A DNA stretch of 64,000 nucleotides, taken from the NCBI RefSeq assembly GCF_014696355.1, contig NZ_JACJQA010000045.1, positions 1 through 64,000 of the forward strand, written 5' to 3'. Each line of letters begins with the position of its first letter. Within the stretch, counting starts at the first letter, position 1. The stretch comes from Pseudanabaena sp. FACHB-1998. Lineage in GTDB: Bacteria > Cyanobacteriota > Cyanobacteriia > Pseudanabaenales > Pseudanabaenaceae. Under the pieces are notes generated by a model. It saw nothing but the letters and a program-made list of their open reading frames with translations. It had not been told where the DNA came from and ran no database searches. A program made the translations under genes and the position numbers. Below are positions 7,221 through 56,520 of the stretch, piece after piece.

Positions 7221-7261
7221 GTAAACAAAAAAGCGGCACGAAGTGCCGCTTTTTTGTTTAC
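7221..7261. terminator. Hairpin terminator at the dapL end
   Basis: The perfect inverted repeat GTAAACAAAAAAGCGGCAC / GTGCCGCTTTTTTGTTTAC has a GAA loop. It acts as a T-rich intrinsic terminator for the minus-strand dapL gene and could work in both directions. One arm contains the dapL stop codon (7258-7260). Confidence 0.85.
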
Positions 7262-8490
7262 TTGAACTTGTCGAGAATGCGGCGCATTGCTTCATTCACG
7301 TTATCGCGACTGTTGAAAGCCGAAATACGGAAGTAACCTTCACCTGCTGCACCAAAACCAGAGCCGGGGGTTCCCACGACATTACAGGTTTGCAAGAGCT
7401 TATCAAAGAAATCCCAACTGGTTAGCCCTGCGGGAGTCTGCACCCATACATAGGGAGCATTCTCACCACCATAAACTGCTAAACCAGCTTCGGTTAGCTT
7501 CTCACGAATGATCTTGGCATTTTCCATGTAGAAGTCAATCAAGGCTCTAGTTTGCGCTTTTCCTTCTTCAGAATAGACTGCCTCTGCACCACGTTGAACG
7601 ATGTAGGAAACACCATTAAACTTGGTAGACTGACGACGATTCCATAGCTTCCATAATTCTACATCAGAGCCATCTTTCGCCTTGCCAATCAAGTTCTTAG
7701 GAACTACGGTTAACGCGCAACGAGTACCTGTAAATCCTGCATTCTTCGAGAAAGAACGGAACTCGATCGCACATTCCTTAGCGCCTTCGATTTCATAAAT
7801 AGAATGAGGAAGACTCGGATCGGTGATAAATGCTTCGTAGGCGGCATCAAAGAAGATGATCGAACCATTGGCACGGGCATAATCGACCCATGCTTGCAGA
7901 TGTTCCTTGGTAGCAGTTGCGCCTGTGGGATTGTTGGGGAAGCAGAGATAAATCAGATCGACTTTTTGAGTAGGAATCTCGGCTGTGAAGTTGTTTTCCG
8001 CAGTCACAGGCAAATAAACTAAGCCCTCGTATTCGCCTTTCTCGTTGATGTCGCCTGTGTGTCCTGCCATCACGTTAGTATCCACATACACGGGATAGAC
8101 AGGATCGGTGACAGCAATAATATTATCATCGCCAAAAATATCGAGAATGTTGCCGCAGTCGCACTTGGAGCCATCAGAAATAAAAATCTCGGAAGCGTCA
8201 ATATCGCAGCCTCTCGCTTGAAAATCATTTGCCGCAATCTTTTCACGCAACCATGCGTAGCCTTGTTCGGGGCCATATCCCTTAAATGAATTGCGATCGC
8301 CCATATCTTCAACGGCTTTGATCATGGCATCACGACAGGCTTGGGGCAAGGGTTCGGTGACATCGCCAATGCCAAGACGGATCACTTTTGAGTCAGGGTT
8401 TGCCTCGATAAAGGCGTTTACCCGTCTTGCAATTTCGGGAAACAGGTAGCCTGCCTTGAGTTTGAGATAGTTGTCGTTAACGGTAGCCAT
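7258..8490 (-). CDS. dapL: LL-diaminopimelate aminotransferase
   Basis: A protein of 410 residues. It converts tetrahydrodipicolinate directly to LL-diaminopimelate in lysine and peptidoglycan synthesis, the route used by cyanobacteria and plants. The class I/II aminotransferase fold shows in [11 protein letters not shown] (PLP region), DAAYEAF and [13 protein letters not shown] (Schiff-base Lys in SKN). The opening [16 protein letters not shown] and [12 protein letters not shown] are typical of DapL. It is monocistronic, with its own terminator hairpin. Length and motifs agree with the family. Confidence 0.95.
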
Positions 8491-8605: not shown

Positions 8606-8720
8606 TATAGCAAAGCAAGAATTAGCCAGTACAAACCAAAACCCAAAAAGCGAGTGGCGGCGCTTCGCGCCGCCACTCGCTTTTTGGGTTTTATGTCCTA
8701 AGCAAAACTTACATTGCTAT
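8606..8720. repeat. 115-bp MITE-like element, copy 1
   Basis: The ends form short inverted repeats (TATAGCAAAGCAAG and TTACATTGCTAT). The centre (8638-8692) is a 26-bp perfect hairpin with a TTC loop. A second copy lies at 19089-19205 and matches along its whole length. There is no coding capacity. The element has the shape of a miniature inverted-repeat transposable element or a mobile hairpin. Confidence 0.8.
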
Positions 8721-19088: not shown

Positions 19089-19205
19089 TATAGCAAAGCA
19101 AGAGTTAGCTAGTACAAACCAAAACCCAAAAAGCGAGTTGCGGCGCTTCGCGGCGCAACTCGCTTTTTGGGTTTTATGTCCTAAGCAAAACTTACATTGC
19201 TATAG
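19089..19205. repeat. 115-bp MITE-like element, copy 2
   Basis: It matches the element at 8606-8720 along its full length, with the same ends and the same TTTTTGGGTTTTATGTCCTA right flank. In the stem a G/C pair of copy 1 is a T/A pair here, a compensatory change. One other stem base is unpaired. It fills most of the gap before the RnfD-like gene. Confidence 0.8.
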
Positions 19206-30216: not shown

Positions 30217-30984
30217 ATGCTAGAAATACCCGATGTTTTTAAAGGTCTATTAATACTTATTTGTGTGTTTGTCCCCATTGAAAAAATATGGTCAATGCAC
30301 AAACAAAATTTATGGCGTGATGGCACAATTACCGATCTTTGCTATTACTTTGCAGGGTTTTTTATTGGTAAAGGGACAACTCAATTATTGATTATCGTTG
30401 CATTGTTGAGTCAAGGATCGATGCCGATATTGACAAGTTTTACTTCACAGCAGCCCTTGATTTTGCAAGTTCCCGTAGCAATTTTTATCGGTGATTTAAG
30501 CTTTTATATTTTGCATCGGTTGATGCATACTGTGCCTTGGCTGTGGAAGTTTCACGTAATTCATCACAGTTCCGAGCAGATTGATTGGCTATCTACTGTA
30601 CGGGTGCATCCTTTCGAGCAGATTTTAACCAAAGCCTGTCAAATGATTCCCCTTTATTGGTTAGGCTTTTCGACACAAGCGTTAGCAATTTATGCAATTT
30701 TCTCTAGTGCGATCGCCTTTTTTATCCATGCCAATATTCAGATAAAAATACCGATTATTAAATGGATTATTGCTACGCCCGAATTTCATCGTTGGCATCA
30801 TGCCAGCAGTCCCGAATTATCCAATAAAAATCTTGCCGTTCAGCTACCAATCATTGATTATTTATTTGGGACTTTTCATCTATCTTCAGAAAAATCACCT
30901 TCAAAGTATGGGTCTAAACTTAAAACCAAAACTAGCTATTTTAAGCATTTATCCTATCCATTTATAGAAATCCTCAAAATTTGA
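30217..30984 (+). CDS. Fatty acid hydroxylase / sterol desaturase superfamily protein
   Basis: A protein of 255 residues with four or more membrane helices. It has the di-iron histidine boxes: LHRLMH, HVIHHSS and HRWHHA (with TVRVHPFE between). These bind two irons for oxygen-dependent hydroxylation or desaturation of lipids. The substrate may be a hopanoid, carotenoid or fatty acid and cannot be read here. A hairpin overlaps its stop codon. Confidence 0.87.
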   Translation: MLEIPDVFKGLLILICVFVPIEKIWSMHKQNLWRDGTITDLCYYFAGFFIGKGTTQLLIIVALLSQGSMPILTSFTSQQPLILQVPVAIFIGDLSFYILHRLMHTVPWLWKFHVIHHSSEQIDWLSTVRVHPFEQILTKACQMIPLYWLGFSTQALAIYAIFSSAIAFFIHANIQIKIPIIKWIIATPEFHRWHHASSPELSNKNLAVQLPIIDYLFGTFHLSSEKSPSKYGSKLKTKTSYFKHLSYPFIEILKI

Positions 30985-31019
30985 ACTTAAAAGGGGCTGA
31001 AGCACCTTTTAAGTTCAAA
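30980..31019. terminator. Hairpin overlapping the hydroxylase stop codon
   Basis: TTTGAACTTAAAAGG is mirrored by CCTTTTAAGTTCAAA around GGCTGAAGCA. The left arm includes the TGA stop (30982-30984). Confidence 0.8.
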
Positions 31020-31023
31020 TACT

Positions 31024-31072
31024 AAGAAAGCCTTTAAAAGCGTTGCTTTGCAGCGCTTTTAAAGGCTTTCTT
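31024..31072. terminator. Hairpin overlapping the end of the HEAT gene
   Basis: AAGAAAGCCTTTAAAAGCG is mirrored by CGCTTTTAAAGGCTTTCTT around a short GC-rich centre. The right arm contains the last three codons and the stop of the minus-strand HEAT gene, so it is partly coding. Confidence 0.85.
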
Positions 31073-31751
31073 GATTGGGTGCTAAGCGCTCCAGAGCATA
31101 TCTCGCGGCTGAGGCAACCTGCGGATGAGCATCCTTAACTAGATAATTTAAAGCGGACAAACTTTTGTCACAATTCAAATTTCCTAAGGCTTCCGCCAAA
31201 CGTTGTCTGGTCAGCCAATCATCAGACTGAGCAAAACGTAAAATTGCATCCACACATCGGATATCGCCAACTTCTCCTAGAGCCGCGATCGCCGCCTGAT
31301 GCAACATGGTTTCCTTGCTATCTAAGGCTTGCATCAGCGCATCATAGGCTCGTAAGTCTCCCAGATTTCCCAAAGAAACAGCCGCACTAAATCGTACCAG
31401 CCATTCCGTATCTTCATAAAAAGCTCGCAAAAGCGGTTCTACAGCCCGATTATCTTGCAAATAACCCATCGCCCCCGCCGCATCGGCTCGAATTCCATAA
31501 TCATTCTCCGTCTCTAAAATCTTGGCTAGGACAGGAAAACAATCTTCCGTATGCTTTAGCCCCAAGGCAAATACCGCCATCGACCTAATCTGCAAATTTT
31601 CATCGTCAATTACCTTCAAAATTAAAGGCACAGCCTCCTCTGGAGCCAAATCTCGCAAAGACACCAACGCCCGTAGGCGATCGCGAGAATTTTCACTCTC
31701 TAGTTGTTCAGCAATATTGCTTATATTTAGATTTGGATCAGGTAAAGACAT
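31059..31751 (-). CDS. HEAT-repeat protein
   Basis: A protein of 230 residues built of about six HEAT / PBS-lyase-like repeats: ALVSLRDLAPEEAVPLILK, MAVFALGLKHTEDCFPVLAK, DAAGAMGYLQDNRAVEPLLR, SAAVSLGNLGDLRAYDALMQ and so on. In cyanobacteria such proteins include bilin lyases (CpcE/NblB-like) and scaffolding proteins. No phycobilisome gene is near, so I do not assign a lyase role. Its last codons lie inside the hairpin arm. Confidence 0.85.
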   Translation of the reverse strand: MSLPDPNLNISNIAEQLESENSRDRLRALVSLRDLAPEEAVPLILKVIDDENLQIRSMAVFALGLKHTEDCFPVLAKILETENDYGIRADAAGAMGYLQDNRAVEPLLRAFYEDTEWLVRFSAAVSLGNLGDLRAYDALMQALDSKETMLHQAAIAALGEVGDIRCVDAILRFAQSDDWLTRQRLAEALGNLNCDKSLSALNYLVKDAHPQVASAARYALERLAPNQESL

Positions 31752-40003: not shown

Positions 40004-40060
40004 CAAAACCCAAGAAAGGAGTTGCGGCGCGAATCGCCGCAACTCCTTTCTTGGGTTTTG
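40004..40060. terminator. Long 26-bp hairpin after the Hsp70-related gene
   Basis: CAAAACCCAAGAAAGGAGTT and GCGGCG are mirrored by CGCCGC and AACTCCTTTCTTGGGTTTTG around CGAAT. The left flank ATTAGGACA matches (as reverse complement) the TGTCCTAA right flank of the 115-bp elements, linking the families. Confidence 0.85.
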
Positions 40061-42783: not shown

Positions 42784-42828
42784 AAAGCAAAAAAAAAGAG
42801 GTGCTATGCACCTCTTTTTTTTTGCTTT
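42784..42828. terminator. A/T-tract hairpin terminator
   Basis: AAAGCAAAAAAAAAGAGGTGC / GCACCTCTTTTTTTTTGCTTT with a TAT loop. It is an efficient intrinsic terminator for the minus-strand DUF1499 gene; one arm covers two bases of its stop codon. Confidence 0.9.
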
Positions 42829-43348
42829 ATGCAAACTTGCTACGAATCGACTCAATGCGATCGCGGTTTACACCAAGATCGGATTTGCCTAAACGGGATG
42901 CAGAGCGAACTTCAATGATTGACTTATCGGTATTTAGATAAAACTCCACGTCATCGACATAACCCATAAAAGCGCTAGTAAACTCAGCGTAGATATAGTT
43001 ACCGTCAGCAGTGATGATTTTGGTGCGAGGCAAACTTTTAATTAAAGCTTGGAGATCGGCTAGAGCCTTGGCGGGATCACCTGTGTAGGTTAAGGGGGCA
43101 ATCTGATGCTCTGGATCGCTGCTTTGGCTAGAAACACAGTTAGGGGAGTCGGGGCAAGCGAGCAGTTTGTTATCAGTAACGCCTAAGTTAGCGGGACGTG
43201 TGCCAGAAAAAGAAAAAAGTGCCATAGGTGTTGCGATCGCAGAATTTAAAGAATGGGTAAGAGAATTTGCGGAAGCGGTGGGAGCAAAGCCAAAATAGGC
43301 AAGGGTAACAAAATAAATGCTTGCGGCGATCGCGACAAGTTTAGACAT
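42827..43348 (-). CDS. DUF1499 family exported protein
   Basis: A protein of 173 residues. It has a signal peptide (about 1-28, ending ASANS). The DUF1499 core shows in LLACPDSPNCVSSQ, then SDPEHQIAPLTYTGD, YIYAEFTSAFMGYVDDVEFY, and IEVRSASRLGKSDLGVNRDR. It is a small periplasmic or thylakoid-lumen protein family of unknown chemistry, common in cyanobacteria and plastids. Monocistronic. Confidence 0.88.
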   Translation of the reverse strand: MSKLVAIAASIYFVTLAYFGFAPTASANSLTHSLNSAIATPMALFSFSGTRPANLGVTDNKLLACPDSPNCVSSQSSDPEHQIAPLTYTGDPAKALADLQALIKSLPRTKIITADGNYIYAEFTSAFMGYVDDVEFYLNTDKSIIEVRSASRLGKSDLGVNRDRIESIRSKFA

Positions 43349-43613: not shown

Positions 43614-43670
43614 ATAAGTAATAGCAAATTAAGAAATGGCGTAGCCATTTCTTAATTTGCTATTACTTAT
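43614..43670. terminator. 27-bp hairpin overlapping the MAPEG stop codon
   Basis: ATAAGTAATAGCAAATTAAG and AAATGGC are mirrored exactly around GTA. The right arm contains the TAA stop of the minus-strand MAPEG gene (43667-43669). Confidence 0.88.
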
Positions 43671-44074
43671 GCGGGGAATAACACGCCGCGCACGAGATTG
43701 TAGAGTGTGCCAAAGATTAACACCATCGTGACTAAAGAGCCGATCGCAAATCCTGCGGCTCTCTTGCTAGCTTCGATGTAGTAGCCCCAAGCATAGGCGA
43801 TGCGTCCGACAATCCACACCGCACCCAAAACTGCTCCCAAATTTGGGTTTACAAAAATACTAAATAGCCACAGACTGGGCAGAAATAGCACAATTTGCTC
43901 AAGGGTGTTTTGATGGGCGCGATAGACTCTTTCAAAGTCTTCATTACCTGTGGTTTGGGGAACAGGAACTTTATATTTGGCACGGGCTACACCGACCGCT
44001 ATCCCCAAGCCGAAATACACAATTAACGCGCCGAGAGAAGCGATCGCAGGAAATATTAGAGTTTTGATGTCCAT
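43667..44074 (-). CDS. MAPEG family membrane protein
   Basis: A protein of 135 residues from ATG 44074; a longer frame to 44263 adds a non-conserved Cys-rich stretch. Four membrane helices carry the MAPEG signature: ERVYRAHQNTLEQIVLFLPS and WIVGRIAYAWGYY. MAPEG proteins are glutathione-dependent transferases or peroxidases acting on lipophilic substrates. A GST is encoded about 1 kb away, but no operon links them. Confidence 0.88.
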   Translation of the reverse strand: MDIKTLIFPAIASLGALIVYFGLGIAVGVARAKYKVPVPQTTGNEDFERVYRAHQNTLEQIVLFLPSLWLFSIFVNPNLGAVLGAVWIVGRIAYAWGYYIEASKRAAGFAIGSLVTMVLIFGTLYNLVRGVLFPA

Positions 44075-44119
44075 TGCTTGTCCCTTTATGATGATGAGTG
44101 CTAGATCTCGTTTTATGTT

Positions 44120-44989
44120 ATGCCAAAGTTTTCCATCTATATCGGAATTGCCGCGATCGCAGGTTTGTTTATGGGCTGTCAGCCGACTCCATCCCCCAGC
44201 CCTACCCCAACAGCAGCAAATAAAGTCATTAATAATAAAGCTATTGATTATTTGCGATCGCAACTGAGTCTATCGCCAAGCTTAGCGATCGTGGCGGAGT
44301 CTCAAAAATCGCAAGCTGCCAATATTAATGATTTGTGTCAAACAGCTACACCGACCCAAGAGGGTTGGGAAATCGCCCTAGTTGCTGAAGATACTCGTTA
44401 TATTTTGCAAACTAATCAAGATGCTAGCAAAATCGAAATTTGTCGCTCTGAAGATGCTCAGCCCGCCACCACAGGTAAATATACGGGCGCAGGTTATCTA
44501 TTGCGCTATCCTGCGACATGGAAGGCGATCGACCTCGGTTTAGAACCTTCAGGAGCCAGTGCCGTAATTTTTACGCCAAGTCCTGAGCTTAATTTGACAG
44601 GTGAAAATAATTTAGAGAAGTTAAGACAACAGCTTTACCAGAGCCAACAGGCTTATGCCTTAGTCCTCAGACAGCCCATCGGTGGTAAGGCGATCGCCGC
44701 CTCGGATGATTCCTCTCAAGCAAAGGATGTGGTGACGGTTCCCTTTGATGCGAAAGTTAAAGGTGCGAAATCTGGCTCTAAAAAAGAATTTACGATCGCG
44801 ATCGCGAATACTTCGCCGAATGACTCTAGCGAAGCTATTCCTTGGCAAGTAAAAGTTTTAACCCTAGAAACGGATCGGTTTATTTACACTGTCAGCTATT
44901 ACCAACCTAAATCTAGTATTGCCGCGAATAGTTCAGCAAAAATCTTTGAGCAGTTTGCCAATAGTTTTGCGCTAGTTCAATCACCATAA
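44120..44989 (+). CDS. Predicted lipoprotein
   Basis: A protein of 289 residues. The signal peptide ends in a lipobox, LFMGC (Cys20), followed by a Pro/Ser/Thr linker (QPTPSPSPTPTAAN). The body has one region around residues 115-160 (AGYLLRYPATWKAIDLG) that resembles PsbP-like or lipoprotein beta-sheet domains, and it ends FEQFANSFALVQSP. I do not assign a precise family. It is divergent from the MAPEG gene. Its last two codons and the stop lie inside a hairpin arm. Confidence 0.7.
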   Translation: MPKFSIYIGIAAIAGLFMGCQPTPSPSPTPTAANKVINNKAIDYLRSQLSLSPSLAIVAESQKSQAANINDLCQTATPTQEGWEIALVAEDTRYILQTNQDASKIEICRSEDAQPATTGKYTGAGYLLRYPATWKAIDLGLEPSGASAVIFTPSPELNLTGENNLEKLRQQLYQSQQAYALVLRQPIGGKAIAASDDSSQAKDVVTVPFDAKVKGAKSGSKKEFTIAIANTSPNDSSEAIPWQVKVLTLETDRFIYTVSYYQPKSSIAANSSAKIFEQFANSFALVQSP

Positions 44990-45022
44990 AGAGCGTTGCT
45001 TCGCAACGCTCTTTATGGTGAT
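44980..45022. terminator. Perfect 20-bp hairpin including coding end
   Basis: ATCACCATAAAGAGCGTTGC / GCAACGCTCTTTATGGTGAT with a TTC loop. The left arm includes the Ser-Pro codons and TAA stop of the lipoprotein gene (44981-44989), and the right arm is an exact inverted copy. Confidence 0.9.
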
Positions 45023-45024
45023 AT

Positions 45025-45579
45025 TTACGAAACTCCTAAAATTGCTTTCTGGTAAGCTGGGCGATCGCTAATGCGTTTGATGTAAGCATCAACGGCAGGA
45101 TAATCGGCATAGGACATTTTCAGCATCATAATCGCATAGCCGAGAATTGTGGCTACGGCGACATCCGACACAGTGAAGTTTTCACCTGTGATGTAGGTTT
45201 GATTTTCGAGAACCTTATTGAGTCCACTGAGTAAACGAGGAGATTCCTTTTCTCGCGACTCGGCAACAAATAAACCAGTGCCAAGAGTAGAGTTAGCGAA
45301 TAAGACCCATTGAGAGGCGATCGCTTTTTCTTCTATGGTTTTGACTTCGCCAAATTTTTCTGCTAGGTAGAGCAAGATTGCACCTGATTCCCATAATTGA
45401 AAGTCGCCATCAGCGATCGCTGGCACTTTGCCGAAGGGATTGATCGCTAAGAAATCAGGTTGTAAATGCTCACCTGCGGACATATCTAGAAGTTGAAACT
45501 CGTAGGGAGCTTGCAATTCTTCTAAATACCACTTAACGATTGAGGCACGACTTCGCGCACCACCATAGAGCTTAATCAT
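45025..45579 (-). CDS. Glutathione S-transferase
   Basis: A protein of 184 residues. The N-terminal thioredoxin fold shows in MIKLYGGARSRASIVKWYL (active-site Ser/Arg region), NPFGKVPAIADGD (cis-Pro) and LWESGAILLYLAEKFG. The C-terminal helical domain contains YITGENFTVSDVAVATIL (N-capping motif). It is a cytosolic enzyme conjugating glutathione to electrophiles, close to bacterial beta/theta types. Slightly short but complete. Confidence 0.9.
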   Translation of the reverse strand: MIKLYGGARSRASIVKWYLEELQAPYEFQLLDMSAGEHLQPDFLAINPFGKVPAIADGDFQLWESGAILLYLAEKFGEVKTIEEKAIASQWVLFANSTLGTGLFVAESREKESPRLLSGLNKVLENQTYITGENFTVSDVAVATILGYAIMMLKMSYADYPAVDAYIKRISDRPAYQKAILGVS

Positions 45580-55214: not shown

Positions 55215-55241
55215 TAACTAAAAAGACTAAAATGATTGATG

Positions 55242-56471
55242 ATGAAAATACTACAAATAACAGCTTGGGATAACTTGGGTCAGCAGTTTAATGGATATCA
55301 AATTCATCAAGCATTATTGAAATCAGGTCAAAATTCAAATATGGCAGTCAGTAATCGTGGATTTTCTGAGCCAAATATTCATCAATTAGGAAACTCTTTG
55401 ACCAGAAAAATTGATCGACGTTTAAGGAGGATTGAACAAAATTTATCTCTCCATGCGATTTTACCCCTATCAGCCTATAGTTTATACTTTTCAGACTATT
55501 ACAAACAATCAGATTTAGTTCATTTACAGCTTATACATGCAGAATCTTTTTTTAGCCTATTGAATTTACCAATTATTAGTAAACAGAAAAAAACTGTTTG
55601 GACTTTACATGACCCTTGGCTATTGTCAGGGCATTGTGTATATTCATTAGAATGCGATCGCTGGTTATCAGGATGTGGTAAATGCCCTGATTTAACCCTC
55701 TCTTTCCCTATCAAAAATGATACAACTGCTTTGATATGGAAACTCAAATATTGGATTATGCATCATTCGCAAATCACCTTAGTAGTTGCTTCACAGTGGA
55801 TGTATGAAAGAGTAAAAAAAAGTTCTATTCTTTCTCACTTACCTTGTCATATTATTCCCCTTGGATTAGATACAAACCTATTTCAACCTCGCGAAAAGGC
55901 AAAATGTCGCGATCGCTTTGGTATTCCCCAAAATGCACAAGTATTAGCTTTTCGATATCAAAGTGGAACAGGATCTTTTAAAGGTTGGCAATGGCTAGAA
56001 ACAGCTTTAATGGATTTAGAAATTGATAAGCCAACTTATTTAGTTAGCTTTGACCAGAAAGGGGGAATGGAAAAACTAAAAGACAAATATCAAGTTATCG
56101 AACTAGGATGGGTTCACGATCAAGACTTACTTTGTGATGCGCTCAATGCCACGGATATTTTTTTGATGCCATCGATCGCTGAAGCCTTTGGCATGATGGC
56201 AGTAGAAGCTATGGCTTGTGGTACGCCAGTAATTGCTTTTGAAAATACGGCTCTAAGTGATGTGATTCAGGCTCCAAAGGCAGGAATTGCCGTCCCCTAT
56301 AAAAATGCTCAAGCCTTAACTGAAGCGATCGCCAAGTTATTAAAAGATGCAGACTTAAGAGGAAAACTTTCAACCGAAGCTGTAAAGCTAGTTAGAGCAG
56401 AATATGATACAAAGCTTTATGTAAATCGACATATTAGTTTATACGAAAGCATAATAAGTAATCCGAGCTAG
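55242..56471 (+). CDS. Glycosyltransferase family 4 (WcaC-like)
   Basis: A protein of 409 residues from ATG 55242; two in-frame starts lie just upstream. The N-terminal VWTLHDPWLLSGHCVYSLEC and SGCGKCPDL is a Cys-rich motif of a particular GT4 subset. The C-terminus has the EX7E motif EAFGMMAVEAMACGTPVIAF. Unlike the preceding genes it has HIP1 sites (near 55653, 55908, 56326) and host-like codons. A long hairpin overlaps its stop codon. Confidence 0.88.
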   Translation: MKILQITAWDNLGQQFNGYQIHQALLKSGQNSNMAVSNRGFSEPNIHQLGNSLTRKIDRRLRRIEQNLSLHAILPLSAYSLYFSDYYKQSDLVHLQLIHAESFFSLLNLPIISKQKKTVWTLHDPWLLSGHCVYSLECDRWLSGCGKCPDLTLSFPIKNDTTALIWKLKYWIMHHSQITLVVASQWMYERVKKSSILSHLPCHIIPLGLDTNLFQPREKAKCRDRFGIPQNAQVLAFRYQSGTGSFKGWQWLETALMDLEIDKPTYLVSFDQKGGMEKLKDKYQVIELGWVHDQDLLCDALNATDIFLMPSIAEAFGMMAVEAMACGTPVIAFENTALSDVIQAPKAGIAVPYKNAQALTEAIAKLLKDADLRGKLSTEAVKLVRAEYDTKLYVNRHISLYESIISNPS

Positions 56472-56520
56472 AAGAAGTGATGATGTGTCGCGCCATACGC
56501 GACACATCATCACTTCTTCT
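56470..56520. terminator. Perfect 23-bp hairpin after the WcaC-like gene
   Basis: AGAAGAAGTGATGATGTGTC and GCG are mirrored by CGC and GACACATCATCACTTCTTCT around CCATA. The left arm starts inside the TAG stop codon. It is the only host-type hairpin inside the island. Confidence 0.85.

Follow-up and report, generated by a model that had tools for sequence, protein, structure and literature searches.

Template switching between the arms of inverted repeats is already known, and the closest described systems, as the accessible portions of the respective papers present them, share several features with the hairpins considered here. In yeast genes, arms have been homogenised, spacers inverted and amino acids replaced, and switching between strands was proposed; the events lie within the coding sequence of 39 genes (Abraham and Hazkani-Covo 2021, PMC8604942). 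In RNA hairpins, compensatory changes, new stems and loop inversions are explained by one copying event (Monttinen and Loytynoja 2022, PMC8794818). A compensatory change together with a loop inversion was seen there in only 6 cases, and on how long perfect stems originate and are kept, that study itself calls its evidence for maintenance circumstantial. Escherichia coli quasipalindromes, that is, imperfect inverted repeats, are perfected by copying at laboratory reporter sites according to the Ripley model (Klaric et al. 2020, PMC7202029). In the chloroplast trnH-psbA spacer, too, a small loop of 25-27 bp flanked by complementary arms can be inverted, and its orientation varies within species (PMC2903610, which cites Kelchner and Wendel 1996). 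Finally, a survey of perfect inverted repeats in 118,019 genomes found them enriched after stop codons, with conserved arms and variable spacers (PMC13155455). The term 'template switch' is absent from its main text, and spacer variation is counted there as single-base variants.

The hairpins of Pseudanabaena differ from each of these systems. Unlike the yeast cases, they belong to a bacterium and sit at gene ends, with one arm outside the gene or in a convergent neighbour, and number 469 in 1.21 Mb. In contrast to the RNA hairpins, their loops are often inverted, and a small sample includes three two-sided changes accompanied by an inversion. They are natural gene-end hairpins compared across species rather than reporter sites. 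Unlike the single plastid spacer, they involve many sites, loops of mostly 3 bases and arm copying into codons. The density of the probable template switching, and its reach into C-termini, look new. Among the matches listed in a literature search whose coverage mostly excludes subscription journals, no paper on such hairpins in Pseudanabaena was found. We consider it likely that the gene-end hairpins are terminators whose arms are repeatedly copied by template switching, the copied tracts at times extending into adjoining codons.

The window, meaning the whole stretch of 64,000 nucleotides analysed (positions 1 to 64,000 of contig NZ_JACJQA010000045.1, Pseudanabaena sp. FACHB-1998), contains 26 perfect hairpins with arms of at least 12 bp and loops of at most 8, against 0 in each of five order-3 Markov sequences. 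The 213,010-bp contig holds 67 non-overlapping perfect hairpins with arms of at least 14 bp, again against 0 in each of five such sequences. These fall between genes (53) or across a gene 3' end (14), with none across a 5' end or inside an ORF; under random placement, 7.3 would be intergenic, 4.1 would be partly coding and 55.6 would lie inside an ORF. The 469 hairpins come from 12 stretches (about 1.21 Mb) of nine genomes, a count that includes both near-identical genomes G006 and G007 (G numbers are our handles for genomes). ORF 3' ends are overlapped by 74 of them, 5' ends by 6, and 9 lie inside ORFs; at least 6 coding bases are taken in by 28 of the 74. Density was compared over all 80 loci around homologues of one gene. 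The 16 nearest loci, 13 of them labelled Pseudanabaena, hold 36 hairpins in 98,032 bases (3.67 per 10 kb), against 20 in 400,858 bases (0.50 per 10 kb) for the remaining 64.

The make-up of the hairpins resembles that of terminators. GC content is 0.72 at the tip and 0.33 in the rest, and among 511 5' arms, element-borne and gene-end classes pooled, AAAA occurs in 257 and TTTT in 70. The GC-rich tip, the A/T-tract bias and the 3'-end bias are traits that, to judge from sequence, suggest a role in termination. In the cyanobacterium studied in PMC13289151, the accessible text of that paper gives intrinsic terminators for just 22% of transcription units. The same composition, along with the strong preference for 3' over 5' ends (74 vs 6), would also suit ordinary terminators that are kept perfect through selection on RNA pairing, by independent compensatory mutations and with no copying. 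That account is taken up again below with the changes in loops and arms.

Seven hairpins of the window had been singled out in the earlier note because their arms take in the ends of neighbouring genes. Arms were rechecked against ORF ends at all seven sites (Table 1), the ORFs being simple calls of at least 100 aa and not annotated genes. All seven hairpins are present, with 2 to 14 coding bases in their arms. The arm at 44980 does hold the final two codons and stop with an exact inverted copy opposite, the arm at 31024 does hold the final three codons and stop of the HEAT gene, and stop codons lie in the arms at 43614, 30980 and 7221. The overlap described as partial at 56470 and 42784 amounts to two stop bases each, and both sites were left out of the evidence for copying. 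Whole codons besides the stop are thus confined to 44980-45022 and 31024-31072; at the other five sites, no more than 2 bases are added to the stop codon. Sites that hold just a stop provide weak evidence for copying, because A-rich 5' arms adjoining TAA pair easily.

Table 1. Hairpins and neighbouring ORFs of the Pseudanabaena window (positions in the window)
Feature	Coordinates	Strand	Description
Lipoprotein-like gene	44120..44989	+	ORF, named after the earlier note; 3' end within the 44980 hairpin
Hairpin	44980-45022		Perfect arms of 20 bp with a TTC loop; one arm includes 10 coding bases, ATCACCATAA (stop, final two codons and one further base)
Left arm	44980..44999	+	44980-44989 close the lipoprotein-like gene (10 bases; S, P and stop)
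Inner stem of left arm	44990-44999	+
Loop	45000..45002	+	TTC
Outer arm	45003..45022	+	Exact inverted copy; stops 2 bases short of the convergent gene's stop
Convergent neighbour	45025..45579	-	ORF; putative GST-like
Hairpin	31024..31072	-	23-bp arms, 1 mismatch; the HEAT gene end contributes 14 coding bases (stop, final three codons and two further bases)
HEAT gene	31059..31751	-	ORF, named after the earlier note; matches in 26/26 genomes
Hairpin	30980..31019	+	19-bp arms, 1 mismatch; 5 coding bases including the TGA stop of ORF 30217-30984
Hairpin	7221..7261	-	19-bp arms; 4 coding bases including the stop of gene 7258-8490
Aminotransferase-like gene	7258..8490	-	Conserved tail, stem 3' of the gene varies between species; we take it to be LL-diaminopimelate aminotransferase-like
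Hairpin	43614..43670		27-bp arms; 4 coding bases including the stop of putative ORF 43667-44263 (198 aa)
Hairpin	42784..42828		Overlaps the stop of gene 42827-43348 by 2 bases
Hairpin	56470..56520		Overlaps the stop of gene 55236-56471 by 2 bases

Copying from a coding end is supported at a gene whose protein ends ...SQGRPEFA* (asterisk, stop). The PEFA* tail, and the NKIEP* tail discussed below, were sought in G005 and 13 further genomes, and ...SQGRPEFA* is kept in all 14. In nine of them, which are not independent since they comprise two clades of three and three others, the outer arm is an inverted copy of GAATT(T/C)GCATAA or of most of it. The base opposite the synonymous T/C position agrees with the coding state in all nine, the state being T in G005, G018, G010 and G000 (the genome of the window) and C in G012, G014, G016, G017 and G011. 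The stem in G010 is imperfect. In the other five (G019, G022, G015, G004 and G007) the coding end is kept and the outer copy is absent, so that the expectation of a conserved coding arm, with an outer arm only where there is a hairpin, holds here. Directly after the PEFA* stop in G011 (L417), a run of N stands in the middle of the hairpin.

The outer arm at PEFA* is itself coding in the five C-state genomes, where it forms the end of a convergent gene reading ...KPKEFA*; the same gene ends ...KPKELV* in G022 and G015. In G000, this second gene likewise ends KPKEFA*, but away from the hairpin, and the likeness of both tails could therefore be old. The two similar protein tails may thus be ancestral and pair by coincidence, and the outer arm in G005 may be a remnant of the second gene.

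A second convergent pair suggests that copying can proceed either way in sister species. Here G005 and G010 have NKIEP* at the end of gene 1, and SIES* closes gene 2 in both G010 and G018. The gene 2 product of G005 ends SIEP* instead, encoded by 12 bases identical to those of gene 1, and the gene 1 product of G018 ends NHKE*, with bases of the end of gene 2. Because G010 has neither copy, a direction can be read: the sequences suggest copying from gene 1 into gene 2 in G005 and from gene 2 into gene 1 in G018, with altered protein ends. Neither case is beyond doubt, since the step from S to P in G005 is a single base and an NHL* end is found at this locus in G016, so that part of the NHKE* tail of G018, where the match is longer, could be older than the copying. 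The case for opposite directions at one locus rests on few bases or genomes. At the NKIEP* gene end, G019 and G014 also carry outer copies, each matching the coding end of its own genome.

At 44980, lipoprotein tails were compared for 20 relatives out of the 25 in the genus. The tail ends QSP* without a hairpin in G017, and the other 19 tails differ. The occurrence of this coding end without a hairpin makes the site consistent with copying. The convergent gene has matches in 26 of 26 genus genomes, its own included, and homology to it starts at 45023-45040 in the 19 relatives compared as loci. The aminotransferase-like gene at 7221 has nearly the same tail in the 25 tails shown, followed by a stem that differs between species; G016 has an inner stem in common with the 7221 hairpin, with the loop inverted. 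At the end of the same gene, the palindrome GTAGGGGCAATTCATGAATTGCCCCTAC occurs in G010, G015, G012 and G020 (L254, L256, L257 and L267), with different surrounding bases.

The hairpin at 31024 reads differently. Among 26 HEAT tails, NQESL* is found in this genome only, and arms of the CAAGAAA...GYGTTGC type, like those of 31024, occur at unrelated loci in other species. Since the tail is new and like arms stand at unrelated loci, insertion is at least as likely as copying at this site, and an inserted hairpin may have brought the coding arm with it. Extended to the hairpins at large, this explanation would have mobile palindromes land at gene ends, either as REP-like sequences or within short elements bounded by terminal repeats, and supply the stop and last codons. 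Such elements do exist in the genus: inserts of about 113 bp with terminal repeats carry AAAACCC...GGGTTTT hairpins at two G005 sites and are absent there in G018. A REP/RAYT system would combine a Y1 transposase gene with repeated palindromes of a single consensus. The IS200-like transposase domain PF01797 was present in 6 of 6 genomes tested, and also in 5 of 14 control genomes. On the contig, 13 of 67 hairpins share a 12-base arm word with another hairpin. The other 54 share none, however, coding ends without a hairpin exist at PEFA* and 44980, and outer arms match the gene end of their own lineage. As a general account, insertion is quite unlikely.

Two kinds of hairpin are accordingly present, the element-borne AAAACCC...GGGTTTT hairpins and those directly at gene ends. 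MITE-type terminal repeats were not seen by eye in the 45-base flanks of 44980 or of the other six sites of Table 1. In the window, AAAACCC...GGGTTTT hairpins lie at 8638-8692, 19121-19175 and 40004-40060 within short elements with TATAGC-type terminal repeats, and their flanks are similar to the G005 inserts.

These comparisons qualify the idea from which the analysis started, that arms are copied outward from local sequence by template switching and that stems are for this reason locus-specific. Local copying finds support at PEFA* and fits 44980, and at 31024 it competes with an insertion that is at least as likely. The direction is not solely outward, as the last codons of the G018 gene match the end of its neighbour. 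Locus-specificity describes the 54 contig hairpins without a common arm word, and does not extend to the 13 that share one or to the AAAACCC...GGGTTTT class, whose identical arms recur at different places of the G005 genome, an observation of the kind that the earlier note itself had named as refuting its idea, here for this class. The idea is thus partly supported, being right in kind, too narrow in direction and shown for a minority of the listed sites at most.

Comparison of loops in close species supports copying between arms. In the closest pair, G006 and G007, flanks differ by 150 substitutions in 26,782 bases (0.56%). Orthologous hairpins compared in this pair number 67, of which 41 are identical and 26 different; the stem is the same in 62, and G007 has no hairpin at three sites and another stem at two. 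Among the 62, the loop is exactly reverse-complemented in 18, unchanged in 40 and uninformative in 4, and 17 of the 18 inverted loops have at least 3 bases. By simple arithmetic, 18 flips in 58 correspond to about 0.48 inversions per hairpin per 0.0056 substitutions per site. The full comparison covered 168 hairpin pairs (67, 46, 27, 20, 2, 3 and 3), with the same stem in 110, on which the counts are based, no hairpin in the second genome in 30 and another stem in 28. Between G005 and G018, 10 loops were flipped, 7 the same and 6 other (10 of 24 same-stem comparisons flipped), between G010 and G018 the figures were 7, 2 and 1 (7 of 10), and between G005 and G010 they were 2, 6 and 2 (2 of 10). 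Eight of these 19 flips concern loops of one base and may instead be substitutions. No flip was seen in the four same-stem comparisons of the G012/G014/G016 group. Long synteny between G005 and G018 was too scarce to use, and orthologues were located through flanks and searches instead. The two genomes are about 96% identical in one gene, and stretches of about 240 kb (G018:C23 and G005:C1) share only two blocks with matches above 800 bases.

That loop inversion is the most frequent change between G006 and G007 would also be expected if whole hairpins were inverted, whether through a recombinase or when a cruciform is cut and rejoined, with no copying from arm to arm. Yet inverting a hairpin does not by itself give it matching arms. 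Copying is required for two-sided changes and for overwritten gene ends, and loops and stems differ between sites, with no common recombinase site evident by eye. It is very improbable that inversion of this kind explains the pattern. Sequencing or assembly artefacts have also been considered, as PCR polymerases likewise switch template at hairpins and invert loops; according to the accessible part of PMC5218489, such inversions reach up to 1.54% of reads for one enzyme, and G006 matches a MAG record. Read fractions near that value would nevertheless leave the consensus unchanged, the pattern recurs between other assemblies (G005 and G018), and the gene-end cases span many bases and are common to clade members. 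An artefact is therefore exceedingly improbable.

Changes in the arms tend to be paired, in line with copying by template switching, the reading preferred here. Among 1864 arm base pairs of same-stem orthologues of equal loop length in close species, 35 had changed on both sides and 8 on one side, with 3 internal indels, a two-sidedness that is overstated because only same-stem hairpins were counted. In the 46 comparisons of G005 with G018, the second species had no hairpin in 12 and another stem in 10, placing 22 of 46 outside the count; some of the pairs scored as lacking one in fact contain the same hairpin in mismatched form. The left flanks of the same set differ by 3.83% (717 transitions and 524 transversions), which by arithmetic would give about 143 single-base differences if arms evolved like flanks. 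The two-sided changes comprise 17 of the transition type and 18 of the transversion type. A transversion pair cannot pass through a single G-U intermediate. In the arms of G006 and G007, one change was two-sided and three were one-sided, and arm copying is less directly shown in this pair than loop inversion.

At three sites, a two-sided change and a 3-base loop inversion occur together: G006 37940, compared with G007, and G005_26 54188 and G010_85 13176, both compared with G018, the last also bearing a mismatch. At two further sites of the G006-G007 pair, 16615 and 36187, a mismatch in one species accompanies an inverted loop, which may reflect repair or fresh damage. Arm mismatches, counted without orientation to the transcription strand, total 27 in 10,008 paired positions, with 8 G-T and 16 A-C and hence no G-T excess.

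Selection on RNA pairing alone accounts poorly for these observations. Loop inversions are irrelevant to stem pairing, yet there are 18 of them against 3 one-sided changes in G006-G007. Of the 35 two-sided changes, 18 are of the transversion type, there are three internal indels in arms, G-T mismatches are not in excess over A-C (8 vs 16 of 27), and pairing extends past the T tract into codons. Independent compensatory mutation without copying is thus an unlikely explanation. The gene-end hairpins combine perfect arms, loop inversions, two-sided changes and outer arms that match the coding end of their own lineage; paired arms as such would also be expected because terminator selection would favour them.

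The following course of events is proposed. The gene-end hairpins are most likely two-way intrinsic terminators, given their GC-rich tip, A-rich 5' arm and T-rich 3' arm, and as such would terminate transcription. A replicating polymerase would repeatedly switch template at the hairpin and use one arm to rewrite its partner; template switching at replication is the copying process that we infer. A single switch between strands would both invert the loop and make the arms identical. A copied tract that extends beyond the terminator core would take in the stop and last codons and write their inverted copy on the opposite side, and between convergent genes the end of either gene could be overwritten. 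We also infer how new hairpins start, possibly from the 'small seed hairpin' that the earlier note had proposed. A broader version, in which copying runs both ways genome-wide, is put forward tentatively, its chances being somewhat below even. In this version, loops would flip far above the base-substitution rate, tracts would keep exchanging the C-terminal and stop codons of convergent genes, and neighbouring proteins would come to share tails (PEFA*/KPKEFA*, KIEP*/SIEP*).

The genus has many hairpins with the strongest signature described in PMC8794818, a paired change with a loop inversion, between close species. The rate, direction and strand bias of copying could be measured in Pseudanabaena. 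If the copying of codons were wider, convergent gene ends would have a source of mutation that is missing from ordinary models, and loop variants counted as single-base variants in genome surveys would in part be inversions.

The frequency of codon copying was assessed by comparing the last 30 bases of each gene, stop excluded, with the next 150, taking the expectation from re-paired genes. Inverted copies of at least 10 coding bases were found at 16 of 913 3' ends in the stretches of the genus, six groups summed, against 6.75 expected. The same test gave 12 against 4.2 expected at 5' ends, and 4 of 359 against 1.8 expected in 64 more distant loci. The proposal that codon copying is common or specific to the genus was dropped because the excess is modest and a like excess appears at 5' ends and distant loci. 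Individual loci show codon copying, which is rare overall. The hairpin at 94359-94413 of the same contig, with 18 coding bases, was set aside because the terminal repeat of an element downstream may form its outer end; insertion of an element and pairing of arms overlap at this site.
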